Assembly: GCA_027459665.1 (NCBI GenBank)
Contig: DAIDHN010000021.1
Span: forward strand, 1-60,143
DNA: 60,143 nt
From: Chthonomonadaceae bacterium
GTDB taxonomy: Bacteria > Armatimonadota > Chthonomonadetes > Chthonomonadales > Chthonomonadaceae
Direction of reading: 5' to 3'
In this document: one piece after another, positions 4,726-16,331 of the stretch
Numbering within the stretch: the first letter of the stretch is position 1
Layout: every line of letters begins with the position of its first letter
Notes under the pieces: model-generated
The model's input: the letters and a program-made list of their open reading frames with translations, nothing else
The model's database searches: none
What the model was told of the DNA's origin: nothing
Program-made: the position numbers and the translations under genes

Positions 4726-6180
4726 TTACCTGTGCAGGTTGTTGGGCCGAAGCAGGCTGCCGGCATCGCTGCCCAGAGTGGTGCGCAGCAGCGTTTCAGG
4801 CATGGCATTTTCTGCGCTGGAGGCGCGCAGCAGCGTAACAGCAGCATTGCTTTTTTCTGCTGTAGAGGGCAGAGCCAGCAGGCATACCCTGGCGGCTTCT
4901 TTCACCCTCCCCTGCTCCGGCCCGACCGCCTCTGAATACGCCAGCCTTTCAACAGGCACAACTGCTGTAATGTTTCCCATACGCTGCAATACATTGAGAA
5001 TGGCAAGCAGAAAGTCGCAGTGATCTTCTGCCAGCCCCATATCCAGCCACTGGTAAAGAATGTCGTACCTCGCCTGCGAAAGCAGCGCCGCGTTTTCCAG
5101 CTTCATTTGCGGCAGCAGCCGCTGCAGCCCCAGTACTGCCATTTTGCGCGCATATCTGTCTGGCCACAACAGGGCGTCGGCGAGCGGGCCAACTGCACTC
5201 ACATCTCTGCTGCGTGCCAGAGCTTTCAGCTCTTTTATCTGCCTGCCCAGCACAGAATAGCGCCCCAGCAGCAGCGGAAGCAGTGCCAGCCCCCCGCCCA
5301 GCACGGCAGGCAGATACTGATGCTGCATTCCATAGTGCGCCATATTGTACAAACCAAAAGGGGTGAATACCGCGTAAGAGGCGGTAAGCACCTTGCTGCG
5401 CAGGGTATAGCGGCGGTGCAGACTGCCATCCTGCTGCTGTGCATGTTCGGCGGGCGGGGCTGTCGCTTCCTGTCCCGCTTCAGAGCCGACAGTGCGCTCT
5501 TGCTCTGCTGCAGACGGCATGTTCTGAGCCGGTTGCAGCGCGGAGGCAGCCGAAAGGGCGTCTACCGTCCTCCGTGCCGCATTGCGTACATCAACCGGGT
5601 ATGCTGCCCCGCACAGCCGGCGCGCTTCTGGCAGAGCAGGCAGGTACTGCTGACGCTCTATGGTGCGCAGGGCATGTTGCAGCATCTTTCTGTCGCGCCC
5701 TGTGCGGGCTGGCCCCAGTATGCGTCTTACCGCGGCAAGGCTGCCGGCATCCAGGTGCCCTTTTTCCACCTCGCTCAGGGTGCGCAGCAGTCGGCGTATG
5801 CGAAGGCGGCAGGCAGTTTGTATTTCCCCCTGCGTTTCATCCAGCAGTTCGGCCAGGGCGGGCAGCCATTTCATGTTCACATCTGCGGTAGCGGCAGCAA
5901 GCTGTGCGCCTCGTATCTGGCGCAGCTGCATTCGGGTCAGTTCGCTGGATATGCCCAGCAGAGCAAAAAGCAGCATGTCTATGCGCTGGCGCATCAGCGC
6001 GCTCACAACGGCTCCGGGCCAAAAGCCGTACCCCAGCACAATCCAGAGCCGCAGCAAAAAAACGTCGGCGCCATGATTCTCTTCCTCAAGCGTCTGCAGC
6101 AGCTGCACTGCGCTGCCTGCCCCGTTTTCAAGACTCGTGCTTACTCTGTCTGGCGGTTTTGCCCCTGTCTGTTTCGTCAC
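4726..6180 (-). CDS. Membrane protein of unknown function with HEAT-like helices
   Basis: 484 residues that I do not recognise. The start is GTG at 6180, overlapping the TGA of the upstream gene as GTGA, with GAGGGA upstream; this coupling supports minus-strand coding against a long shadow frame on the other strand. An N-terminal hydrophobic stretch (about residues 42-75) is followed by a Gln/Arg-rich helical region, an Ala/Gln/Glu-rich linker near 225-250, a hydrophobic hairpin near 270-300, and a segment near 310-345 (G-P-L-A-D-A-L-L-W) that looks like a HEAT or Armadillo helix pair. The C-terminal 100 residues are helical. It probably acts at the membrane together with the upstream gene product. 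No enzymatic motif is visible. Confidence 0.6.
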   Translation of the reverse strand: MTKQTGAKPPDRVSTSLENGAGSAVQLLQTLEEENHGADVFLLRLWIVLGYGFWPGAVVSALMRQRIDMLLFALLGISSELTRMQLRQIRGAQLAAATADVNMKWLPALAELLDETQGEIQTACRLRIRRLLRTLSEVEKGHLDAGSLAAVRRILGPARTGRDRKMLQHALRTIERQQYLPALPEARRLCGAAYPVDVRNAARRTVDALSAASALQPAQNMPSAAEQERTVGSEAGQEATAPPAEHAQQQDGSLHRRYTLRSKVLTASYAVFTPFGLYNMAHYGMQHQYLPAVLGGGLALLPLLLGRYSVLGRQIKELKALARSRDVSAVGPLADALLWPDRYARKMAVLGLQRLLPQMKLENAALLSQARYDILYQWLDMGLAEDHCDFLLAILNVLQRMGNITAVVPVERLAYSEAVGPEQGRVKEAARVCLLALPSTAEKSNAAVTLLRASSAENAMPETLLRTTLGSDAGSLLRPNNLHR

Positions 6181-7808
6181 GGCATTTCCCTCATTGCAAC
6201 CAGCTGCCCCGTCTCATCCGGCTGCCTTTTTGTCTGCTGCGTGCCTCCACCATATGAGTCGAGCGTAAAATAGTCGATATGAATATCCGCAGGGCCAATG
6301 CTGTATGCCAGCCCTCCAACTGCAGGGGCAGCGCCTGGTTCGGGGGGCAGATAGCAAAGCGGCTGGTTTTTTACGCGGGCAAACGGGTCGGCAGGCACAG
6401 CAGGCAGATAGGCGGGAACCAGCTGCTGCAGGCTGGCAGGCATGGCGCCATGATCCCTGGCATACAGCATTTCTGCCAGCGTAACCACAAGCAGACGGTT
6501 GTAGGCAAGGTCAGCCCTGTGGTTCATATCATTGTTCACAGGTGGCAGAACCGCTTCTGATATGCGCGGGCAGCGCTGCCGAAGCCACACCTGCCATTTT
6601 ACCAGAGGCAGATACGATCTGTCGGTGTATGCACCGCCTGTCAGGGCAGCATAGGCGTTTAGGGCCTGCTCATAGCGCCGAATAAAATGCTGCCAGGGGT
6701 GCTGTATCACCTGCATATCTGCGTGCAAACGGTTCCATTCGTTGTCGGCAAGCCCGCTGCTCTGCAGCAGATACGCTGGCTGGTAGTAGCGTGCCACGGC
6801 ATCTGCCAGCAGGGGAAGATGATTCTGCCTGTAGTTTTGCAGCAGTGCGCTGAAATGAGGGCGGCTGCTGAGCAGAAGCTGCACTGCCTGCAGCATATGC
6901 ACAAGGTCGGGGCGGGTAAGAAATGCTTTCTGCGGGGTATGGCTGTAATAGAGCTGCTGGTTTTGCGCCAGCATGCTCCATACAACAGAACGCGCAGCGT
7001 GGTTCATTTTCAACAATGCGCGGTACTGGTGCAGTGAACTGTTTTGCTGCAGCATAAAATTGAGCCGCAGTGCCTGCAGGGCGGTGTCGAACGCTTTCAT
7101 CCACTCCTGTTTTGCCTGGTAATACCGTGCCTCATCTATCAGCAGAGCATTCGCCCGCAAAACAACATTGTGCTGCTGCTGCGGGTTGACTGTTATCTGC
7201 ATTTGCAATGCCTCATGTATTTGCTGCAGAGGCTTCTGGTTGGCGTTCAGCACGCTTTGCAAAAAGGAGAATGTAATATGCCGGTTATGTATCTGCTCTG
7301 CAGAAGGCGCTGTATTGAAGACATACATTGTGCTGCTCTGGCCTGGTGCGCCGTATACTGCCTGATAGCCAACTGAAACGGGGTTCATCAGCCAGCCGTA
7401 ATCCAGCGGAGGCAGATGTGCAGGGTCGGCAAAGCCGAGTTTTTTTGCATCACTGGCAGAGTAGTACTTGCCGGCAGGCTCATGAATGGCTTCTGCTGCA
7501 TTCATCAGCAGCTGCCATCCTTTGCTTGGCCCAAGCACAGCGGGGTAAGCAGGCAGATGAGGCACGCGTTCGGCTTTGCGAACCTGCTGCTGCATATAAG
7601 CAGGCACAGAGTAGATGCCTGCCCCCAGCGCTATCGCTGCGCCTATGCGCACAGGCAGCGATACGCGGCTGGCCAGGCTGAACAATTTTCTCCTGCCGGT
7701 ATGCAGTGGCAAGCCAGCTGTTTCAGGCAGCGTTTTCTCTTCTGCATACACACCCGCTGCTGTCGGTTTGGCAGTAGCAGACGCTCCCTCAGTTTTATGA
7801 TTCAGCAT
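6177..7808 (-). CDS. Single-pass membrane protein of unknown function
   Basis: 543 residues from ATG 7808. I prefer this start over the ATG ten codons upstream because GGAGGGG sits at 7818-7824, nine bases before it. One transmembrane helix (about residues 42-62, A-A-I-A-L-G-A-G) follows a cytoplasmic N-terminus of about 40 residues. The rest is a large extracytoplasmic, Gln- and Tyr-rich, mainly helical domain ending in a short P-A-D-P-F region and a Y-S-I-G-P-A-D-I strand. That ending resembles the C-termini of Armatimonadota and Planctomycetes proteins in which a D-P-F-x-x-x-P-L-x-Y motif is frequent. No catalytic signature is seen. It is translationally coupled to the downstream gene (GTGA overlap), so the two products likely work together. 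Confidence 0.6.
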   Translation of the reverse strand: MLNHKTEGASATAKPTAAGVYAEEKTLPETAGLPLHTGRRKLFSLASRVSLPVRIGAAIALGAGIYSVPAYMQQQVRKAERVPHLPAYPAVLGPSKGWQLLMNAAEAIHEPAGKYYSASDAKKLGFADPAHLPPLDYGWLMNPVSVGYQAVYGAPGQSSTMYVFNTAPSAEQIHNRHITFSFLQSVLNANQKPLQQIHEALQMQITVNPQQQHNVVLRANALLIDEARYYQAKQEWMKAFDTALQALRLNFMLQQNSSLHQYRALLKMNHAARSVVWSMLAQNQQLYYSHTPQKAFLTRPDLVHMLQAVQLLLSSRPHFSALLQNYRQNHLPLLADAVARYYQPAYLLQSSGLADNEWNRLHADMQVIQHPWQHFIRRYEQALNAYAALTGGAYTDRSYLPLVKWQVWLRQRCPRISEAVLPPVNNDMNHRADLAYNRLLVVTLAEMLYARDHGAMPASLQQLVPAYLPAVPADPFARVKNQPLCYLPPEPGAAPAVGGLAYSIGPADIHIDYFTLDSYGGGTQQTKRQPDETGQLVAMREMP

Positions 7809-8251
7809 AACAAATTTCCCCTCCAAACGCATACGCATGCTGTGCTGTACGCATCAGCAAAACTGCAACCTTCCGGCAAAACTTTTTCACGACACTGGTT
7901 TACTCACAGCAGTTCCAGACTTCAATATGCCTCAGCAATATAGACGCTTTGATTCAACTTTCTTTCAAACGGCTCATGGAACCTGAGAGTGACTATGTGA
8001 AGCCGATATTATTTTTATCGCCCCGCCCTCCCCTGTGCCGGTATGCTGCCCTCTATGCCCGCACCACCAACGGCAGCCTGCCGGGCGTCAGTATCATAGA
8101 ATGGCAGGGCAGCCGGCAGTACCTAAATACTTGCATGCGGCATAGACGGCATTATGTCAAATACTGAAGCGCCAGCATACCCGGTTTATTTGGCTCGGTC
8201 TTCAAAGAGCTTCGGTATCGGCCTGCTGCCTCTGAAGGCGAACGATTATTT
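7809..8251. other. Non-coding stretch with a long imperfect inverted repeat
   Basis: No supported gene lies between the start of the 543-residue protein and the end of the CARF gene, both on the minus strand. A plus-strand frame at 7949-8167 has no ribosome binding site, domain or composition typical of the neighbours. The stretch holds the structured element at 8037-8117. A CTCTGAA/TTCAGAG hairpin at 8230-8257 overlaps the CARF stop codon. A minus-strand TTGACA at 8160-8155 has no good -10 box at the right distance. Confidence 0.5.
8037..8117. repeat. Long imperfect inverted repeat, candidate structured RNA
   Basis: Nested complementary arms are visible. GCCG (8037-8040) pairs with CGGC (8114-8117), GCTGCCC (8045-8051) with GGGCAGC (8107-8113), and TCTATG (8052-8057) with CATAGA (8095-8100), leaving ATGGCA as a one-sided bulge. 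Inside, CCCG (8058-8061) pairs with CGGG (8082-8085) around a CGGCAG/CTGCCG palindrome. About 20 pairs over 81 bases in a gene-free stretch suggest a structured transcript or a remnant mobile hairpin. Strand and function are unknown. Confidence 0.45.
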
Positions 8252-9358
8252 TCAGAGCTGAATATTGCTTTTCAGCCATTCCAGCAGCCTGTACTGCTCG
8301 TTACGAGTTTTTGCCGTAGTTTTCAACAACAGGCAGCAGGGCGGCTGGTCTCCTTTGCTGTCTCGCAGCACCGCCTCTATTTCACCAATCTGATCGCACC
8401 TCTTAAACTCAAGTACTGTATGAATGGGGCGGCCAGGCTGAGAATGAATAGAAACAATGTACGGGTCTGCACGCAGAAGCTGCACCAGTCTGTCGTAGTC
8501 TGCAGGGCGATGGTGCCCCTTGCTCTCTGCAACATTTTTCTGCTCCGGGCTAATATCGCATTCATTAGGCATGGGCATATGCACAAACTGCTGGTGCATT
8601 GCCTCATGGTACAGGGCGCCCAGTGCCGACAGCATCACCTGCCCCTGGCTGCGTTCCAGCATTGGCTCAAGCGCCTCAGGAATGTTTTGAAGCTTTTCAT
8701 TTTCCTCAGGCATCCCTTCATTTTGCAATTCTTCCAGAAGGTCGCTGTGTTCCAGCCAAAGAGTAAGGTCATAGTCTATGGGCATAACAGGCATCTCTAT
8801 GATTTCACGAAACCCTTCAAACTGGTAGTACACTGGCGCTTTCAGCAGCTGCCCCAACAGGGTGGCATAGCTGATCTGTGCCTTGTAGCCTCCCGTAGCG
8901 TTGATATGTATCTCGTGCCCGCTGTTTTTTGCCTTGCGCAGCTGCTCGCTCATGGTGCGAACCAGATTGCGCAGGCCATCCGTACGAAACAAATGCTGAT
9001 TGCTGTCATCCAGCTTATCTACCACCTGCACTTTTACCGTATCAAACTGGCAGTCAGACCTGCACTTTTCAAAAAAGCATTTCAAAATGCCCCCGGTCTG
9101 CTTCCCCTCTGCTGTTTCAGAAACAAACAGAACAAGCTCTTTCAGCTTCTTCCCTTTCAGCGTGCCGTTCACCAGAGACACCATCGAATTGATCTCTGCA
9201 CCACACACACCGGCTTTGGGGTCTTGGCTGACCAGCCATGCCGCAATATGGCTGTTCTCATTCTTGTCCAGCTTCTTTTTCAGGCCTTCATCAGTCTCTC
9301 TCTTCAAATTGCCCAGCAGGGAAGTCCCCACCGTACAAAGCACCACAACATTGCTCAT
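8252..9358 (-). CDS. CARF-domain protein, APE2256/Csx1-Csm6-like
   Basis: 368 residues from ATG 9358, chosen because AAAGGGTG lies seven to nine bases upstream and the protein then begins directly with the first CARF strand, V-V-V-L-C-T-V-G-T-S. Upstream in-frame codons overlap the divergent rhamnosidase gene. Residues 1 to about 200 form a CARF fold: the G-T-S loop near 11-13 and the N-A-T-G-G-Y-K signature at 153-159 are the cyclic-oligoadenylate pocket motifs of the APE2256 (TIGR02619) group. A helical linker follows. The last 90 residues (about 280-368) are predicted helix, strands, then L-L-L-K-T-T-A-K-T-R and a final helix. I see no HEPN R-x4-6-H motif and suspect a RelE-like toxin fold, as in CARF-RelE ribonucleases. 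No cas gene or CRISPR array is in the window. Confidence 0.8.
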   Translation of the reverse strand: MSNVVVLCTVGTSLLGNLKRETDEGLKKKLDKNENSHIAAWLVSQDPKAGVCGAEINSMVSLVNGTLKGKKLKELVLFVSETAEGKQTGGILKCFFEKCRSDCQFDTVKVQVVDKLDDSNQHLFRTDGLRNLVRTMSEQLRKAKNSGHEIHINATGGYKAQISYATLLGQLLKAPVYYQFEGFREIIEMPVMPIDYDLTLWLEHSDLLEELQNEGMPEENEKLQNIPEALEPMLERSQGQVMLSALGALYHEAMHQQFVHMPMPNECDISPEQKNVAESKGHHRPADYDRLVQLLRADPYIVSIHSQPGRPIHTVLEFKRCDQIGEIEAVLRDSKGDQPPCCLLLKTTAKTRNEQYRLLEWLKSNIQL

Positions 9359-9445: not shown

Positions 9446-11854
9446 ATGCGCATTTACCTGGAAGGCGATCCTTATCTGCCAGCGCAGACTGAAAAAACCT
9501 GGAGCGAAAGGGGTGCATGGCCCTGCCACTGGATAGGTTACACACCAGAGCAGGCTACTCCTGCTGTAATTGCTTTCCGGCTCTGCTTTCATCTAAATTC
9601 ACCGGTTTCTGCTTTGCTGCATGTCACGGCAGACCAGCGCTACACGCTTTTTCTTGATGGTGTGCAGATAGGCGAAGGCAGCGAACGGGGTGATGCAGAC
9701 CACTGGTATTTTGAAAGCTGGCAGGTAGATATGGATGCCGGCCCTCATATACTTGTTGCACGCGTATGGTGGCTGGCAGACATGGCCCCATATGCCCAGA
9801 TGTCGCTACGCCCAGGTTTTTTGCTTTCGCCGCAAAGCCCCGATCTGCAGCCGCTGATAGGCACTGGGCTGGCGCACTGGGAAGCAGCTCTGCTGCAGGG
9901 CTGCCAGTTCAAAGGCCCGCAGGCCGCCTGGGGAACCGGCGCCAATATGATAGTGCATGGAGAGCAGTACAGCTGGGGGCACGAAAAAGGCGAAGGAGAG
10001 AACTGGCTGCCTGCAGTTGTTGTAGAACGCGCCGTGTGCGCCGCGAAAAACGACAGGCCGCCCTCGCACCTGCTTACCCCCTCTAGCCTGCCGCCCATGA
10101 TGCGATCGCGCTGGAACCAGGGAAGAGTGCGCCATGTACAGGCGGCTGCCTCTCTGCATACCAGCCAGATGCCCGTGCTGCAAAGCGAGCACATTGCACC
10201 AGAGGCAGAACTCTGGCAAAACCTGCTCTCGCAAAATGCCCCTCTGCACATCCCTCCGCATACTGCAAGACGCATTCTGATTGATCTGCAAGACTACCTG
10301 TGCGCCTACCCGGTGGTTCAGCTTTCAGGCGGCAGGGGCGCTTTGGTAAGAGTACACTGGCAGGAAGCGCTGTTTGAGCAGTACCCTCCCCGTACAAAAG
10401 GCAGCAGAGACGAAGTAGAAGGCAAGTATTTCACAACCATCTGGTCGGGCGAAGATGGAATAGGCGACACTTTTCTGCCAGACGGCGGACAGAACAGGGT
10501 GTTTTCCACCCTCTGGTGGCAGTGCGGACGTTATGTTGAAGTGTACGTGCAAACCGGTGAAGAACCGCTCGCCATTGAAAACCTCTGTTTTTTGGAAACA
10601 CGCTACCCGCTGGAAAAACAGGCCGCATTCTCCTGCTCAGACCCTCGCCTGGAAGAAGCTGCGCAGCCAATGGTGCGCGCGCTGCAAATGTGCAGCCATG
10701 AGACATACATGGACTGCCCCTACTACGAACAGCTGATGTATGCAGGCGATACGCGCCTGGAAATCATGGCCACCCGTGCCATTACCTCAGATGACCGCCT
10801 TCCTCTCAAGGCACTGCGCACCTTTGGACATTCGCTGCACAGCATGGGGCTTACCCGATCGCGCTACCCAAGCAGAGTGGCGCAAACCATACCGCCCTTC
10901 TCACTCTGGTGGATAGGCATGCTGTATGACACAATGATGTGGCGCGAATGCCGGCCAGTGCTGCGTGAACTCATGCCCGCCGCCAGGGCAGTGGCAGAAT
11001 ACTATTTGCAGCGGCAAAACAGTGATGGGCTGACTGGCCCGGCAGAAGGCTGGAACTATATGGACTGGGTGGAGGAATGGCCCTCTGGTGAGCCGCCCGA
11101 TGGGCGCAGCGGCTGCAGCGGGTTAATACACTGGCAGTTTGTGCATGTGCTGGGCCTGCTTGCCGAACTGGAAGGTGCGCTGGGCGAACCAGAAATGGCG
11201 CTGCGCTGTGAAAGGCTTGCGGCGCAGCTGGCACAAAGCGGTGAGGCAGCATTCTGGAATGAGGAGAAAAGTCTTTTTGCCGATGACCTTCAGCATACCC
11301 GTTTCTCCGAACATACCCAGTGCATGGCCATACTCAGCCACAGACTGTCTCCCCGCCGGCAAAAACAGGTGGGCGACAGCCTGATGAGCGCTAAAAACCT
11401 GGCGCGCGCCACCATTTACTTTCAGCATTATCTTTTTGATGCCCTCTATATGCTGGGGCGTACCGATAAAATGCTGGAGCATATGGAACTCTGGTTTTCG
11501 CTCAAGTCACAGGGGTTCAAAACCACGCTGGAAAAGCCCGAACCCAGCCGTTCAGACTGCCATGCCTGGGGCGCGCATCCGCTTCATCATTACACCGCCT
11601 CGCTGCTGGGCATTCGCCCGGCGTCACCCGGCTTCCATACGGTGCGCATTGCTCCTCAGCCTGCTGGCCTTGCCTGGCTGAGAGGAGAAGTGTTTCACCC
11701 AGCAGGCAAAATTCTGGTAGAGCTTCAGAGAGACAATGGAATGCTGACCGGCATGGCTGTACTGCCCCAAAACATATCTGGTTCTTTTGAGTATGCAGAT
11801 TCGCATCTGTCTCTCCTGCCGGGAGAGAACAAAATCAGCATGCGCGACCACTAG
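9446..11854 (+). CDS. Alpha-L-rhamnosidase-like glycoside hydrolase (GH78-type)
   Basis: 802 residues from ATG 9446, with GAGGAA at 9434-9439. An in-frame extension runs far upstream but is antisense to the CARF gene and is rejected. An N-terminal beta-sandwich (to about residue 170), then a longer beta region, lead into an (alpha/alpha)6 barrel from about residue 390. The barrel carries D-C-P-Y-Y-E-Q-L with Asp 423, followed by Y-A-G-D-T-R; in the rhamnosidase family this Asp/Glu-rich loop lines the active site. W-N-Y-M-D-W-V-E-E-W near residue 535 and the D-C-H-A-W-G-A-H-P segment near 710 are also typical. A small beta domain closes the protein. No signal peptide is visible, so it probably acts on imported rhamnosides, for example pectin or flavonoid fragments. 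Confidence 0.85.
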   Translation: MRIYLEGDPYLPAQTEKTWSERGAWPCHWIGYTPEQATPAVIAFRLCFHLNSPVSALLHVTADQRYTLFLDGVQIGEGSERGDADHWYFESWQVDMDAGPHILVARVWWLADMAPYAQMSLRPGFLLSPQSPDLQPLIGTGLAHWEAALLQGCQFKGPQAAWGTGANMIVHGEQYSWGHEKGEGENWLPAVVVERAVCAAKNDRPPSHLLTPSSLPPMMRSRWNQGRVRHVQAAASLHTSQMPVLQSEHIAPEAELWQNLLSQNAPLHIPPHTARRILIDLQDYLCAYPVVQLSGGRGALVRVHWQEALFEQYPPRTKGSRDEVEGKYFTTIWSGEDGIGDTFLPDGGQNRVFSTLWWQCGRYVEVYVQTGEEPLAIENLCFLETRYPLEKQAAFSCSDPRLEEAAQPMVRALQMCSHETYMDCPYYEQLMYAGDTRLEIMATRAITSDDRLPLKALRTFGHSLHSMGLTRSRYPSRVAQTIPPFSLWWIGMLYDTMMWRECRPVLRELMPAARAVAEYYLQRQNSDGLTGPAEGWNYMDWVEEWPSGEPPDGRSGCSGLIHWQFVHVLGLLAELEGALGEPEMALRCERLAAQLAQSGEAAFWNEEKSLFADDLQHTRFSEHTQCMAILSHRLSPRRQKQVGDSLMSAKNLARATIYFQHYLFDALYMLGRTDKMLEHMELWFSLKSQGFKTTLEKPEPSRSDCHAWGAHPLHHYTASLLGIRPASPGFHTVRIAPQPAGLAWLRGEVFHPAGKILVELQRDNGMLTGMAVLPQNISGSFEYADSHLSLLPGENKISMRDH

Positions 11855-11937: not shown

Positions 11938-12894
11938 TTGAATTCTCAGCAGGTTGCCCTGAAGGCGCAACAGATTGTTTCTGCAGTTGAAAAAGCTATT
12001 GTAGGTAAAAATGACACAGTAACCATGGCGCTCGCTATTCTTCTTGCACAGGGACACCTGCTCATAGAAGACATACCCGGCGTGGGCAAAACAACTCTTG
12101 CAAAGTCGCTCGCAAAAGCACTCGGTCTCAAATTCAAGCGCATACAATTCACCCCCGATCTGCTGCCTTCCGATATTACGGGGTCTTCTATTTACAACCA
12201 GAAAACGGGTGATTTTGAAGTGCGGCCAGGCCCGGTTTTTGCAAATCTGGTGCTGGCGGATGAGATCAACCGCACCACCCCCAAAACACAGGCGGCCCTG
12301 CTGGAATGCATGGAAGAACAGCAGGTTACCATCGACGGCAGCGGCCTTGCGCTTCCCTCCCCTTTTTTCGTGATTGCCACACAAAACAACATTGAGATGG
12401 CTGGCACCTATCCCCTGCCAGAAGCGCAAATGGACAGGTTTATGGCGCGCATTGCAATGGGCTACCCCGATAGAACCGCTGAGGAAAATATTTTGAAGGG
12501 GCAGATTACCTCGCGCCCCGTAGACAGCATAGAGCCAATCAGCTGCGAAAGCGAGATACTGGAAATGCAGAAAGCTGTGCGCACTGTATTTGTAGATGAG
12601 GCAGTACAGTCGTTTCTGCTGGACATTGTGGTGGCTACGCGCACGCACTCCTCTGTTGCACTGGGTGCGTCACCCCGCGGAGCGCTTGCCCTGCAGTACT
12701 CGGCTCAGGCCCTTGCTGCTATAGAAGAGCGTGACTTTGTAAAGCCCGACGACATAAAACGCCTTGCAGCCATTGTTCTGCCGCACAGAATGCTGATACG
12801 CCCCGAACAGAGAATTAGAGGAATTACCTCCGACGAGTGCCTGCAAGACATCCTTGCTTCCATCTCTCCGCCTGTAGCAGCCAGAATACGCTGA
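11938..12894 (+). CDS. MoxR-family AAA+ ATPase
   Basis: 318 residues from TTG 11938, with GGGAGGA at 11927-11933. The Walker A motif G-V-G-K-T-T is at residues 48-53, the Walker B motif L-A-D-E-I-N at 106-111, and sensor 1 is in the A-T-Q-N-N segment near 145. The MoxR-specific P-L-P-E-A-Q-M-D-R-F follows near 158-167. MoxR ATPases act as chaperones or insertases that mature partner proteins, usually of the DUF58/von Willebrand type. The next gene is exactly such a DUF58 partner, 21 bases downstream, then a TgpA-type transglutaminase. Length and motifs are complete. Confidence 0.93.
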   Translation: MNSQQVALKAQQIVSAVEKAIVGKNDTVTMALAILLAQGHLLIEDIPGVGKTTLAKSLAKALGLKFKRIQFTPDLLPSDITGSSIYNQKTGDFEVRPGPVFANLVLADEINRTTPKTQAALLECMEEQQVTIDGSGLALPSPFFVIATQNNIEMAGTYPLPEAQMDRFMARIAMGYPDRTAEENILKGQITSRPVDSIEPISCESEILEMQKAVRTVFVDEAVQSFLLDIVVATRTHSSVALGASPRGALALQYSAQALAAIEERDFVKPDDIKRLAAIVLPHRMLIRPEQRIRGITSDECLQDILASISPPVAARIR

Positions 12895-12915
12895 ACCACG
12901 TGCAAGGAGCAGACA

Positions 12916-14130
12916 GTGCAACACAGTAAATGGATTACTCTGGTGTTTGGTTCCCTTTGCCTGGTTGCGGTGGCAACCGTTTTGCAGTCTCAGCATCTGT
13001 TTTACATGGCAGCCCTTCTGCTTACCCTGCCCGGTGTCTCTTACGCCATGGGCTGGTTTACACTGCGCGGCCTCACCTTTCAGAGAAAACTGCCCGCCAG
13101 CGCCTGGGAAGGAGAAACCGCTGTGGTAGAGTACCAGGCAGCCAACCCTACTCATATCACCCGATTTTTTATCTCCATGCAAGAATCATGGCCAGACTGG
13201 ATAAATGAAGAGCAGGAAGATACTCCATTGCTCAATGTACCCGCAGCAGGCAGCGTTTCGCAGTTGTGCCGCCTTCGCTTCGAGCGCAGGGGATGCTATT
13301 CAAGCAGCCATTTTTCTGCAGTGGCTCTAGACCCGCTCGGCGTATTCTCCTTCTCACGCAATGTCCTCTCAAAACAAGAACTGGTGGTGTATCCCGCCCC
13401 ATGCGTCACGGCAGAGCTGCCCGAATCTGGGGCGGAGCGCTTTGGCTGGCAGTCGTTTGTATCTGCGGCCTTGCGCGGAGCCAGCATAGACCCAGACGGG
13501 GTGCGCACCTATGTTCCAGGCGACCCGCTCAGACACATTCACTGGAGACAAACGGCCCGAACCGGCAGGCTCAACGTAATGGAGTTTGAAGAAACCTACT
13601 CTATACACCTCATTCTTGCTATTGAAACCCAACTGGGCACCAATATTGGCCCTGCAAACAACAGCACACTGGATTATGCAGCGCGCCTTGCTGCATGGCT
13701 GGCCAACGAAACCGTGCGCGCCGGAGCATCGCTGCGCCTGATGCACTGCTCTCCTTCTGCAGGCAGTGCAGTTACCGATGTGGGCGGCGGCAAGGGAGAA
13801 GAGAATCTGATGCTGATACTAGATACGCTGGCGCGCATGGAAGACAATGCAGAAATGCATCTCGGCAGGGCGCTGCAGCATCTGCAAGGCCCGCTTCCGC
13901 CCGGTTCTGTGCTGCTGGCGCTTACCTCTACAGCAGACCCAGACCTTGCCCAAACGCTCTCGACATATACCGCGCAAAACGTAAACTGCGCAGTAGTGCT
14001 GCTCAAGGCAGGTTCTTCTGATACAGAAGATAAAAACTTTCTGGCTGCGCTGGCAGGCGCCGGTGTGCATACATTTACGCGATTTCCGCTTGAAGACCAT
14101 GAAACCGCCCGAAAGGAGCATGCCCAATGA
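12916..14130 (+). CDS. DUF58 membrane-associated protein
   Basis: 404 residues from GTG 12916, with AAGGAG at 12904-12909. Two hydrophobic segments lie in the first 55 residues, then a beta-rich domain with the D-P-L-G-V-F-S-F-S-R segment near residue 138. The DUF58 hallmark Y-V-P-G-D-P-L-R-H-I-H-W-R followed by A-R-T-G-R-L is near residues 197-217. A vWA-like domain follows, without a complete MIDAS motif that I can see. DUF58 proteins are the substrates or partners of MoxR ATPases in envelope assembly. The stop overlaps the start of the transglutaminase gene as ATGA, so the three products are made together. Confidence 0.9.
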   Translation: MQHSKWITLVFGSLCLVAVATVLQSQHLFYMAALLLTLPGVSYAMGWFTLRGLTFQRKLPASAWEGETAVVEYQAANPTHITRFFISMQESWPDWINEEQEDTPLLNVPAAGSVSQLCRLRFERRGCYSSSHFSAVALDPLGVFSFSRNVLSKQELVVYPAPCVTAELPESGAERFGWQSFVSAALRGASIDPDGVRTYVPGDPLRHIHWRQTARTGRLNVMEFEETYSIHLILAIETQLGTNIGPANNSTLDYAARLAAWLANETVRAGASLRLMHCSPSAGSAVTDVGGGKGEENLMLILDTLARMEDNAEMHLGRALQHLQGPLPPGSVLLALTSTADPDLAQTLSTYTAQNVNCAVVLLKAGSSDTEDKNFLAALAGAGVHTFTRFPLEDHETARKEHAQ

Positions 14131-16331
14131 CTGCCCCTGCATATTCGGCCTCAGCGAAAAAAGAAAACGTTTTTCTTCGGCCAAGCCCCTGGCTCTATTT
14201 GTCTGGTCTGATAGTTACGCTCGCCGGTCTGTTTGCCATCAACTACACACTCAACGATTCAGGTTTTCTTGTACTTACATTTGGCCTTGCCACACTGGGA
14301 TACCTTTTCAGCTTCACCCTGCGCAGCCTCAAAATATCGTTTCAATCTCTGCAGGCCCCGCTGATACTGGCAGGCTGCCTGCTTACAGCGCTGCTTATAG
14401 CAAATGGCAGCCTTACCTACCTTGCCATACCAGATGCTGCCATCCACCATAAGCTGCTTACCCTGCAGGTGCTGATCGGCTGGATTGCAGTGATCCACTC
14501 GTTTACCCTCATCGGCGACTCTTCTGTTCTGTTTGCCTGCGTACCCTGCATCACCGCACTCTCTCTGGTAAGCGTACGCACCAGCGACAGCGTGATACAG
14601 TACGATTTTTTCGTATTTGTAGCCGCAGCAACGTTTTTAATGGTTCATGAAAACTATTTGCGTACACTTGCGGCACAGGCGAAAGGCAAATCATATGCAA
14701 CCGTGCAGCAAAGGCTCTTTGGCGGGCAGTTTATGCTGGCCCTCTCGTGCATAGGAGGAGCGCTTCTCCTCGCAAATCTGGTTGATGTGCCTATTCAAAG
14801 CCTGGGCAATCTTTTGTTTGGGCAAAACTCAGCCGGGCAGGGCAAGGGATTGTTCAGCAAACTGCTGCCACAGGTAAGAGTAACAGAAAAAAATCATGTT
14901 GCTATAGATACAGGAGGCGTGCGTTCTACCGACACCCCTCTGCTTAGCGTGCACTGCTCTCAGGGCCTTTACTGGCTGGGCAGCACATACAACTACTACA
15001 CAGGGCACGGGTTTAAAGATACTCTGCAAACAGGTGCAGGCGGCTCTGGTACAGACGCAAACGTTGTGCTGATGCCCTATTCGCAGAATTCACAAGATAC
15101 ATTCGGCCCTCCAAGCATGCTCTACCATATACCAAACAGCCCTGTGCAGCTGCCCGATTCGCAAATGCTTCATTCCACTCTGGTCACAATAGATGTAAAG
15201 GTGCTGGATGGCAGGTTCAATGTGCTCTATGGGGCGGCAAAGGTGAAAAGTATTTCCGGAGTACTGCCCCGTGTAAGCTTCAATGCAGCAGGCAGGCTGC
15301 AAACCAGCGATACGCTGCCCTCAAACACCACCTATGAGGTAGTATGCCGCGTCCCATGCACAAACCCTGATGTGCTGCGGCAGTGCCCCGCTTCTCTTGC
15401 CGATGTGCCCCCGATTATTGCCAGGTATTACCTGCAAACCAAAGTAGATGGCAAACAGGATGAGCAGGCAGCCGCTTTGGCAAGACAGATAGCCGCGGGT
15501 GAAAACAACAATTACGACAAGGTTATGGCGCTGCGAGACTACATTGCCTCGCATTGCGATTACAACCTGAACGTGAGAGGAGCACCTGCCGGGCTGGATG
15601 TTGTACACTACTTTCTGTTTGGGTCGCACCAGGGATATTGCGACAGCTTTGGGGCTTCTCTGGTGATGTTGTGCCGCTATGTCGGCATACCGGCACGGCT
15701 CGCCTCTGGTTTTATTACAGGAGACCCCGATGGCAGCGGATCGTACACTGTGCGAGATAGGCACAAGCATATCTGGACAGAGGTATTTTTTTCGCACATT
15801 GGCTGGGTGCCGTTTGATGCCACAGCCGGGGCAAAAGATATTACAGTTCAAAACCGGCATGCTGTAAAACCGCTCATGTTTTTTCAGTGGATATTCGCGC
15901 ACGGGCCAGTTCCTCCCCTGGCTGTTGGTGTCATTCTGCTGCTGCTCGGCATAGTGTACAAGCAGGAAGTGCTGGATAAGCGGCGCCTGCGCCCGGTGCG
16001 AAGACTGGGCAGGCGCGTTCTGCCGCAAACCAACGGCATGGTGGCAGCGTTATTTTTTCAGGCGGTGTACTGCCTGAAACAGCAGGGGGTGCCCTACTCT
16101 TCCTCTCTCACGGCAGATGAGTATGTTCTGCTGGCGCTGCAGCGCCTTCCACTCACAGCTGAAACGCAGACCAGTCTGCTCAGGCTCACTGCTCTCTTCA
16201 ACCGTGCCGTCTACAGCCCGCACACTCTCAGCCAGGCAGAGGCAGACGAAGCAAAATTTATTCTGGCCAGCCTGAAAAACGCGCTCAAACTGATCAAAAA
16301 GCCAATCGCTGCCGCTGCTGTACGCACATAA
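14127..16331 (+). CDS. TgpA-like transglutaminase-domain membrane protein
   Basis: 734 residues. Six or seven hydrophobic helices fill about residues 20-225, then an extracytoplasmic domain leads to a transglutaminase-like core. The catalytic triad is readable: Cys 505 in G-Y-C-D-S-F, His 548 in H-K-H-I-W-T-E and Asp 564 in P-F-D-A-T-A-G. A further transmembrane helix (about 590-615) precedes a cytoplasmic DUF4129-like tail. TgpA-type proteins are thought to cross-link or cleave envelope proteins, though substrates are generally unknown. The gene starts within the DUF58 stop (ATGA) and ends within the holA start (TAATG), giving a tightly coupled order MoxR-DUF58-TgpA-holA. Confidence 0.9.
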   Translation: MTAPAYSASAKKENVFLRPSPWLYLSGLIVTLAGLFAINYTLNDSGFLVLTFGLATLGYLFSFTLRSLKISFQSLQAPLILAGCLLTALLIANGSLTYLAIPDAAIHHKLLTLQVLIGWIAVIHSFTLIGDSSVLFACVPCITALSLVSVRTSDSVIQYDFFVFVAAATFLMVHENYLRTLAAQAKGKSYATVQQRLFGGQFMLALSCIGGALLLANLVDVPIQSLGNLLFGQNSAGQGKGLFSKLLPQVRVTEKNHVAIDTGGVRSTDTPLLSVHCSQGLYWLGSTYNYYTGHGFKDTLQTGAGGSGTDANVVLMPYSQNSQDTFGPPSMLYHIPNSPVQLPDSQMLHSTLVTIDVKVLDGRFNVLYGAAKVKSISGVLPRVSFNAAGRLQTSDTLPSNTTYEVVCRVPCTNPDVLRQCPASLADVPPIIARYYLQTKVDGKQDEQAAALARQIAAGENNNYDKVMALRDYIASHCDYNLNVRGAPAGLDVVHYFLFGSHQGYCDSFGASLVMLCRYVGIPARLASGFITGDPDGSGSYTVRDRHKHIWTEVFFSHIGWVPFDATAGAKDITVQNRHAVKPLMFFQWIFAHGPVPPLAVGVILLLLGIVYKQEVLDKRRLRPVRRLGRRVLPQTNGMVAALFFQAVYCLKQQGVPYSSSLTADEYVLLALQRLPLTAETQTSLLRLTALFNRAVYSPHTLSQAEADEAKFILASLKNALKLIKKPIAAAAVRT

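Follow-up and report, generated by a model that had tools for sequence, protein, structure and literature searches.

A gene for a CARF-type protein of 368 residues lies on a contig that has no recognisable CRISPR machinery of its own. This raises two questions. Which system, if any, does such a protein serve, and what does its C-terminal part do? The original prediction saw an orphan CARF effector, possibly with a RelE-like tail, serving either a distant type III system or a CRISPR-independent form of defence.

The window, meaning the whole stretch of DNA analysed here, is 60,143 nucleotides long and comes from a Chthonomonadaceae bacterium, whose contig C21 it covers from end to end. The assembly is 3.67 Mb in size and 99.9% complete. 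The reading frame of the CARF gene is intact. A longer open reading frame starts at 9592, but we take the ATG at 9358 as the start, because homologues align there at the TVGTS start region. The features of the gene are collected in the table below.

Its divergent neighbour at 9446-11854 (+) encodes an alpha-L-rhamnosidase-like glycosidase, and starts 88 bp upstream of the CARF gene. A listed open reading frame of 1144 residues from 8420 is an artefact that reads into the CARF gene. Also beside it, at 4726-7838 (-), are two consecutive genes of 484 and 553 residues, for which Pfam, NCBIfam and PADLOC gave no credible match. Further on, genes for a MoxR-type AAA protein, a DUF58 protein and a transglutaminase stand in a row (11938-16331, +), which is an ordinary operon. 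Promoter and terminator scans stayed at chance level.

No CRISPR array was found in these 60 kb, nor any other recognisable cas gene, as had been said from the letters alone. The sole cas-like match in the window, at E=0.006, was taken as chance. Within the window, no cyclase or other defence gene adjoins the CARF gene.

Features of the CARF gene, with positions in the window
Feature	Position	Strand	Evidence
CARF7-type protein, whole gene, 368 aa	8252..9358	(-)	PADLOC PDLC01930 CARF7--CARF_DUF2103, E=2.2e-85, residues 5-365
CARF domain, residues 1-190, predicted cyclic oligoadenylate sensor, probable ring nuclease	8789..9358	(-)	PF09651 E=2.1e-34; model fold matches Sis0811, Sso1393 and Cami1 CARF
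G11-T12-S13 loop	9320..9328	(-)	S13 invariant 17/17; aligns with Sis0811 S12
N153-A-T-G-G-Y-K159	8882..8902	(-)	K159 invariant 17/17; aligns with Sis0811 K169
Winged-helix-like domain, residues 198-259, common to Sis0811/Sso1393 and Cami1	8582..8767	(-)	model secondary structure; VIA against 7pq3
C-terminal tail, residues 275-368, helix-4 strands-helix, candidate effector domain	8255..8536	(-)	whole and tail-only models; no PDB match
H282-H283-R284-P285 motif, tail start	8504..8515	(-)	H283 16/17, P285 14/17, H282 13/17, R284 11/17
T347-T348, end of the tail's last strand	8315..8320	(-)	T347 17/17, T348 15/17

Sensor and chassis

That this is a CARF protein of the APE2256/CARF7 clade is well supported by its sequence. 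PF09651 (Cas_APE2256) matches with 118.7 bits where the cut-off is 24.8, and at an E of 2.1e-34 the CARF assignment is not due to chance. TIGR02619 matches as well, with 72.9 bits against a cut-off of 37.45. Besides an APE2256-type CARF domain over cut-off, the protein has the putative ring-binding or catalytic serine and lysine of CARF7. They lie in the G-T-S loop and the N-A-T-G-G-Y-K motif, both of which, like the APE2256-type sensor, had been recognised in the original prediction.

Membership of Csx1/Csm6 (CARF-HEPN) was considered and rejected, since the C-terminal domain has no R-X4-6-H. The only such string in the protein spans residues 141-148, inside the CARF domain. A string search of the tail finds none, which agrees with the earlier observation.

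The AlphaFold2 model of the whole protein (pLDDT 88.9, pTM 0.79, built from 17 sequences) has the domain order CARF, winged-helix-like (about 198-259) and tail (about 275-368). A C-terminal domain of 90 residues after CARF had been described before. The separate tail is indeed there, but the winged helix between it and CARF had been overlooked.

The closest fold to the whole model is that of Cami1 (Foldseek 2.3e-16; VIA Z 22.9, rmsd 8.0 over 287 residues, model residues 4-359). Cami1 is also the best PDB match by sequence, at 7.9e-39, for residues 1-253 only. Next come Sis0811 and Sso1393, both ring nucleases, which match residues 2-259. For this part of the model VIA gives a Z of 21.1 against 7pq3, with an rmsd of 3.5 over 239 residues.

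Cami1 is a cA4-activated CARF-RelE ribonuclease (PDB 8phb/8phj; PMC11229360). It has the same chassis of CARF and winged helix, followed at the corresponding position by a small C-terminal domain. However, neither sequence nor fold identifies the present tail as RelE, and the present gene is outside a cas locus. Sis0811 and Sso1393 (7pq2, 3qyf) share the CARF fold, the winged helix and the positions of the catalytic S and K, but both lack the 94-residue tail. SyCsm6 (Sll7062), a CARF7-RelE protein of Synechocystis, likewise has a small C-terminal domain joined to a CARF7 sensor. Its own tail is annotated as RelE however, and its gene is inside a III-D operon (PMC9676260).

By profile, the protein belongs to a class that PADLOC has catalogued as CARF7--CARF_DUF2103. 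The best model is PDLC01930, with 285.1 bits over residues 5-365, against 189.9 bits for the best CARF_RelE model. The second model of the class, PDLC01931, matches at E=1.3e-57. The match is full-length and shows no difference from the class, other than that the tail is unmatched by Pfam's DUF2103. As far as could be found, this class is catalogued but uncharacterised, and no mention of DUF2103 was found in the literature searched.

The C-terminal tail

A profile search of the tail (RelE, HEPN, PD-D/ExK and NYN) and a structure prediction had been suggested as checks on the RelE-like idea. The model of the tail alone is confident (pLDDT 94.3, pTM 0.86), yet nothing in the PDB matched it. Against the PDB there is no confident fold match (best Foldseek E 0.22, best VIA Z 4.6), and no RelE chain is among the best matches listed. 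A viral structure library gave nothing. Such an absent match does not prove a new fold.

The sequence searches were similarly empty. Pfam yields no RelE/ParE match for the tail, and no credible match of any other family, and PHROGs has no credible match either. For HEPN, PD-(D/E)xK and NYN there is no Pfam match to the tail or to the whole protein.

The tail is under purifying selection, with dN/dS of about 0.29 (L013/L019) and about 0.16 (L015/L016). In one of these close pairs the CARF part is under somewhat stronger selection than the tail. The most strongly conserved positions of the tail are T347, H283, T348, P285 and H282, which might fit the active site of an RNase that works without metal. 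It could also be that the tail is a regulatory or binding domain.

On a tree of CARF domains only, RelE-type tails and tails of the present type are interleaved. Two changes are needed to explain this, with modest support for the deep forks. The present tail is called an effector mainly because it and RelE exchange on the same sensor. Tentatively, the tail may be an effector domain whose fold or catalytic type is new for CARF proteins. It would then replace RelE on the CARF-winged-helix chassis and be widely used in trans outside cas loci, beyond the reach of surveys that cover only a few kb on either side of Cas10.

Type III systems in the genome and the phylum

The rest of the genome was read in stretches around its two cas loci, and was also searched for repeat patterns. 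Contig C19 carries a type III-B Cmr locus with Cmr1, Cas10/Cmr2, Cmr3, Cmr4, Cmr6 and a CARF2-HEPN Csx1. The SGGDD motif of this Cas10/Cmr2 is intact, which makes it cyclase-competent by sequence. An array of 11 repeats lies near the Cmr locus. Its repeat occurs in 25 copies, spread over C19, C26, C72 and C78; C21 has none. The genome thereby contains a predicted type III system that produces cyclic oligoadenylate (GGDD Cas10 plus repeat arrays). A peptide-pattern scan of genome contigs found one relative only.

The CARF gene on C21 is outside this locus and, to judge by the lengths of the contigs, at least some 30 kb from it. Since the Cmr locus is on C19 of the same genome, the gene is an orphan by position only, not by genome. 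The suggestion that it may serve a distant type III system is supported: Cas10 and an array, for which a search of the whole genome had been proposed, are both on C19. Genome content and co-occurrence give good support to a trans relation between the protein and the type III-B system.

The other cas locus, on contig C3 (L030:12378-18759), is type I-B-like, with cas7, cas3, cas4, cas1 and a probable cas2, which we take to be such from its sequence and place. No array was found near it in the 40 kb read.

Co-occurrence was studied in 291 genomes of the phylum, where the CARF7 profile matches 46 genomes and RAMP profiles match 87. RAMP genes are present in 42 of the 46 genomes with CARF7, against 45 of the 245 without (Fisher p of about 1e-21, which ignores species relatedness). 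A profile of the tail alone matches 12 genomes, 11 of them with RAMP genes. These matches are always inside a CARF7 protein, and no stand-alone copies of the tail were seen in the 291 genomes. One genome that is 74% complete, G023, carries the gene and shows no RAMP gene.

Type III genes lie near the tail-type gene in 8 of 17 cases. In G217, G260, G008, G009, G252, G255 and G289 the distance to Cmr, Cas10 or RAMP genes is 1-5 kb, and in L010 (G007) a RAMP gene is about 9 kb away. No type III gene is beside the tail-type gene in G022, G024, G025, G006, G007 (second copy), G176, G253 and the genome studied here.

These neighbourhoods vary. In G217 (L072:551-9022), Csx1, Csx15 (7149-7529) and the tail-type CARF7 gene follow one another in a compact Cmr locus. 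In G025 (L087:4150-12044) the genes some 3 kb away from the tail-type gene are of type I, namely Cas8a and Cas3, and not of type III. Long CARF7 proteins of 747 and at least 763 residues are encoded directly beside tail-type CARF7 genes in G255 (L080:9333-11576) and G007 (L021); they probably carry an HD or other large domain. Ureibacillus thermosphaericus DSM 10633 has a III-B locus (L003:10001-13392) with two adjacent CARF7 proteins, of 263 and 392 residues, followed by Csx1. The 263-residue protein is tail-less and of the CARF-winged-helix form; it looks like a protein of the Sis0811 type.

A proposed role and its rivals

The favoured reading, held with modest confidence, is that the protein works in trans as an ancillary effector for the genome's own type III-B (Cmr) system, activated by cyclic oligoadenylate and with its tail in RelE's place. 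It builds on the architecture, the conserved pocket residues, the presence of a type III system elsewhere in the genome, the co-occurrence and the exchange of tails. On recognition of target RNA, Cas10, with its GGDD intact, would make cyclic oligoadenylate, most likely cA4. This ring is named because it predominates as a signal and because Cami1-like proteins and Crn1 belong to the same CARF group. A dimer of the protein would bind the ring in the CARF pocket (S13, K159), and the signal would pass via the winged-helix domain and switch on the tail. In CARF effectors including Cami1, it is the binding of Cas10-made cyclic oligoadenylate that switches on the effector domain (PMC11229360).

Where Cami1 has its RelE ribonuclease, the tail would most likely cleave RNA or otherwise block translation, using the conserved H282/H283/R284 and T347/T348. 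Its likely job would be to halt the growth of phage-infected cells. Slow cleavage of the ring by the CARF site is also probable, and would shut the effector off. Such a dual role is plausible because one CARF7-RelE protein acted as a ring nuclease but did not cut naked RNA (PMC9676260). Against an effector stands the lack of a match between the tail and any nuclease family or fold in Pfam, PHROGs, profile and PDB searches, and also that the gene is not in a cas operon.

The tail may be a RelE domain after all, diverged beyond recognition in a CARF-RelE protein of the Cami1 kind that cleaves mRNA at the A site of the ribosome. It sits at the same place in the chain, and the helix-4 strands-helix order of the model is compatible with a diverged RelE/BECR-type fold; the whole-protein match to Cami1 also extends into the tail, up to model residue 359. 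When a profile is made of the full-length family, its alignment with RelE-type C-termini is collinear (prob 90, E 1.5e-6), which leaves room for a distant kinship of the two tails. This match is not counted for RelE however, because it rests largely on the shared winged-helix end that anchors it. Comparing the tail alone with the RelE-type tails of sister CARF7 proteins fails (prob 0.3). RelE is characterised by a Lys/Arg/Tyr set, whereas the conserved residues here are His/Arg/Thr, and PADLOC separates the protein from its CARF7--CARF_RelE models. The Pfam and fold searches brought up no RelE among their best matches either. A diverged RelE is the less likely reading, and the RelE-like tail of the original prediction stands unconfirmed. 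The PADLOC class name, matched by 17 of the 17 tail-type proteins, offers another identity: the DUF2103 domain of Pfam (PF09876, predicted metal-binding), acting by metal chemistry. PF09876 does not match the isolated tails at E<=10 and was rejected for the tail; it also has no match over cut-off in the 291 genomes, while control archaea were positive. The tail alignment has no conserved Cys or acidic cluster. Metal chemistry of this kind is quite improbable.

The other rivals concern the role of the whole protein. It could mainly be a ring nuclease, an off-switch of the Cmr/Csx1 response in which cA4 is cleaved at the CARF site, with the winged helix and the tail doing no more than tune this activity. 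S13 and K159, the equivalents of S12 and K169 in Sis0811, are invariant in all 17 proteins, and only Cami1 ranks above Sis0811 and Sso1393 as a fold match. The Sis0811 winged helix is reported to be autoinhibitory and to tune ring nuclease activity (PMC10018336). Crn1 belongs to CARF7 (PMC12409355), and SyCsm6 had ring nuclease but no RNase activity in vitro (PMC9676260). The tail-less form in Ureibacillus means however that a tail is not needed for this role, and the present tail exchanges with RelE on the same lineage and has strongly conserved positions of its own. A ring nuclease first and foremost is a distinct possibility, but a less likely one. Service to a CRISPR-independent nucleotide signalling defence would fit a 60-kb window without cas genes, and a gene that is also away from type III cas genes in the seven other genomes named above. 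Yet the G025 copy lies near a type I cas locus, relatives occur within type III loci, and no cyclase or other defence gene adjoins in the window. Because CARF7 genes co-occur so strongly with type III RAMP genes, this part of the original prediction is weakened, and it is now highly improbable.

The favoured reading, an effector working in trans for the type III-B system, bears on how such effectors are counted. Censuses of type III effectors have used a radius around the cas operon of 4 kb (PMC11229360) or 6 kb (PMC12409355). About half of the tail-type proteins in this one phylum lie outside a radius of some 4-6 kb, so the count of effectors is probably too low. Genomes with Cas10 loci that seem to have no effector may be served in trans. 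The sensor half of the protein is, on good support, ordinary. The point of interest is its uncharacterised output domain: a small, well-folded and exchangeable tail that is a candidate for a new output of CRISPR signalling.
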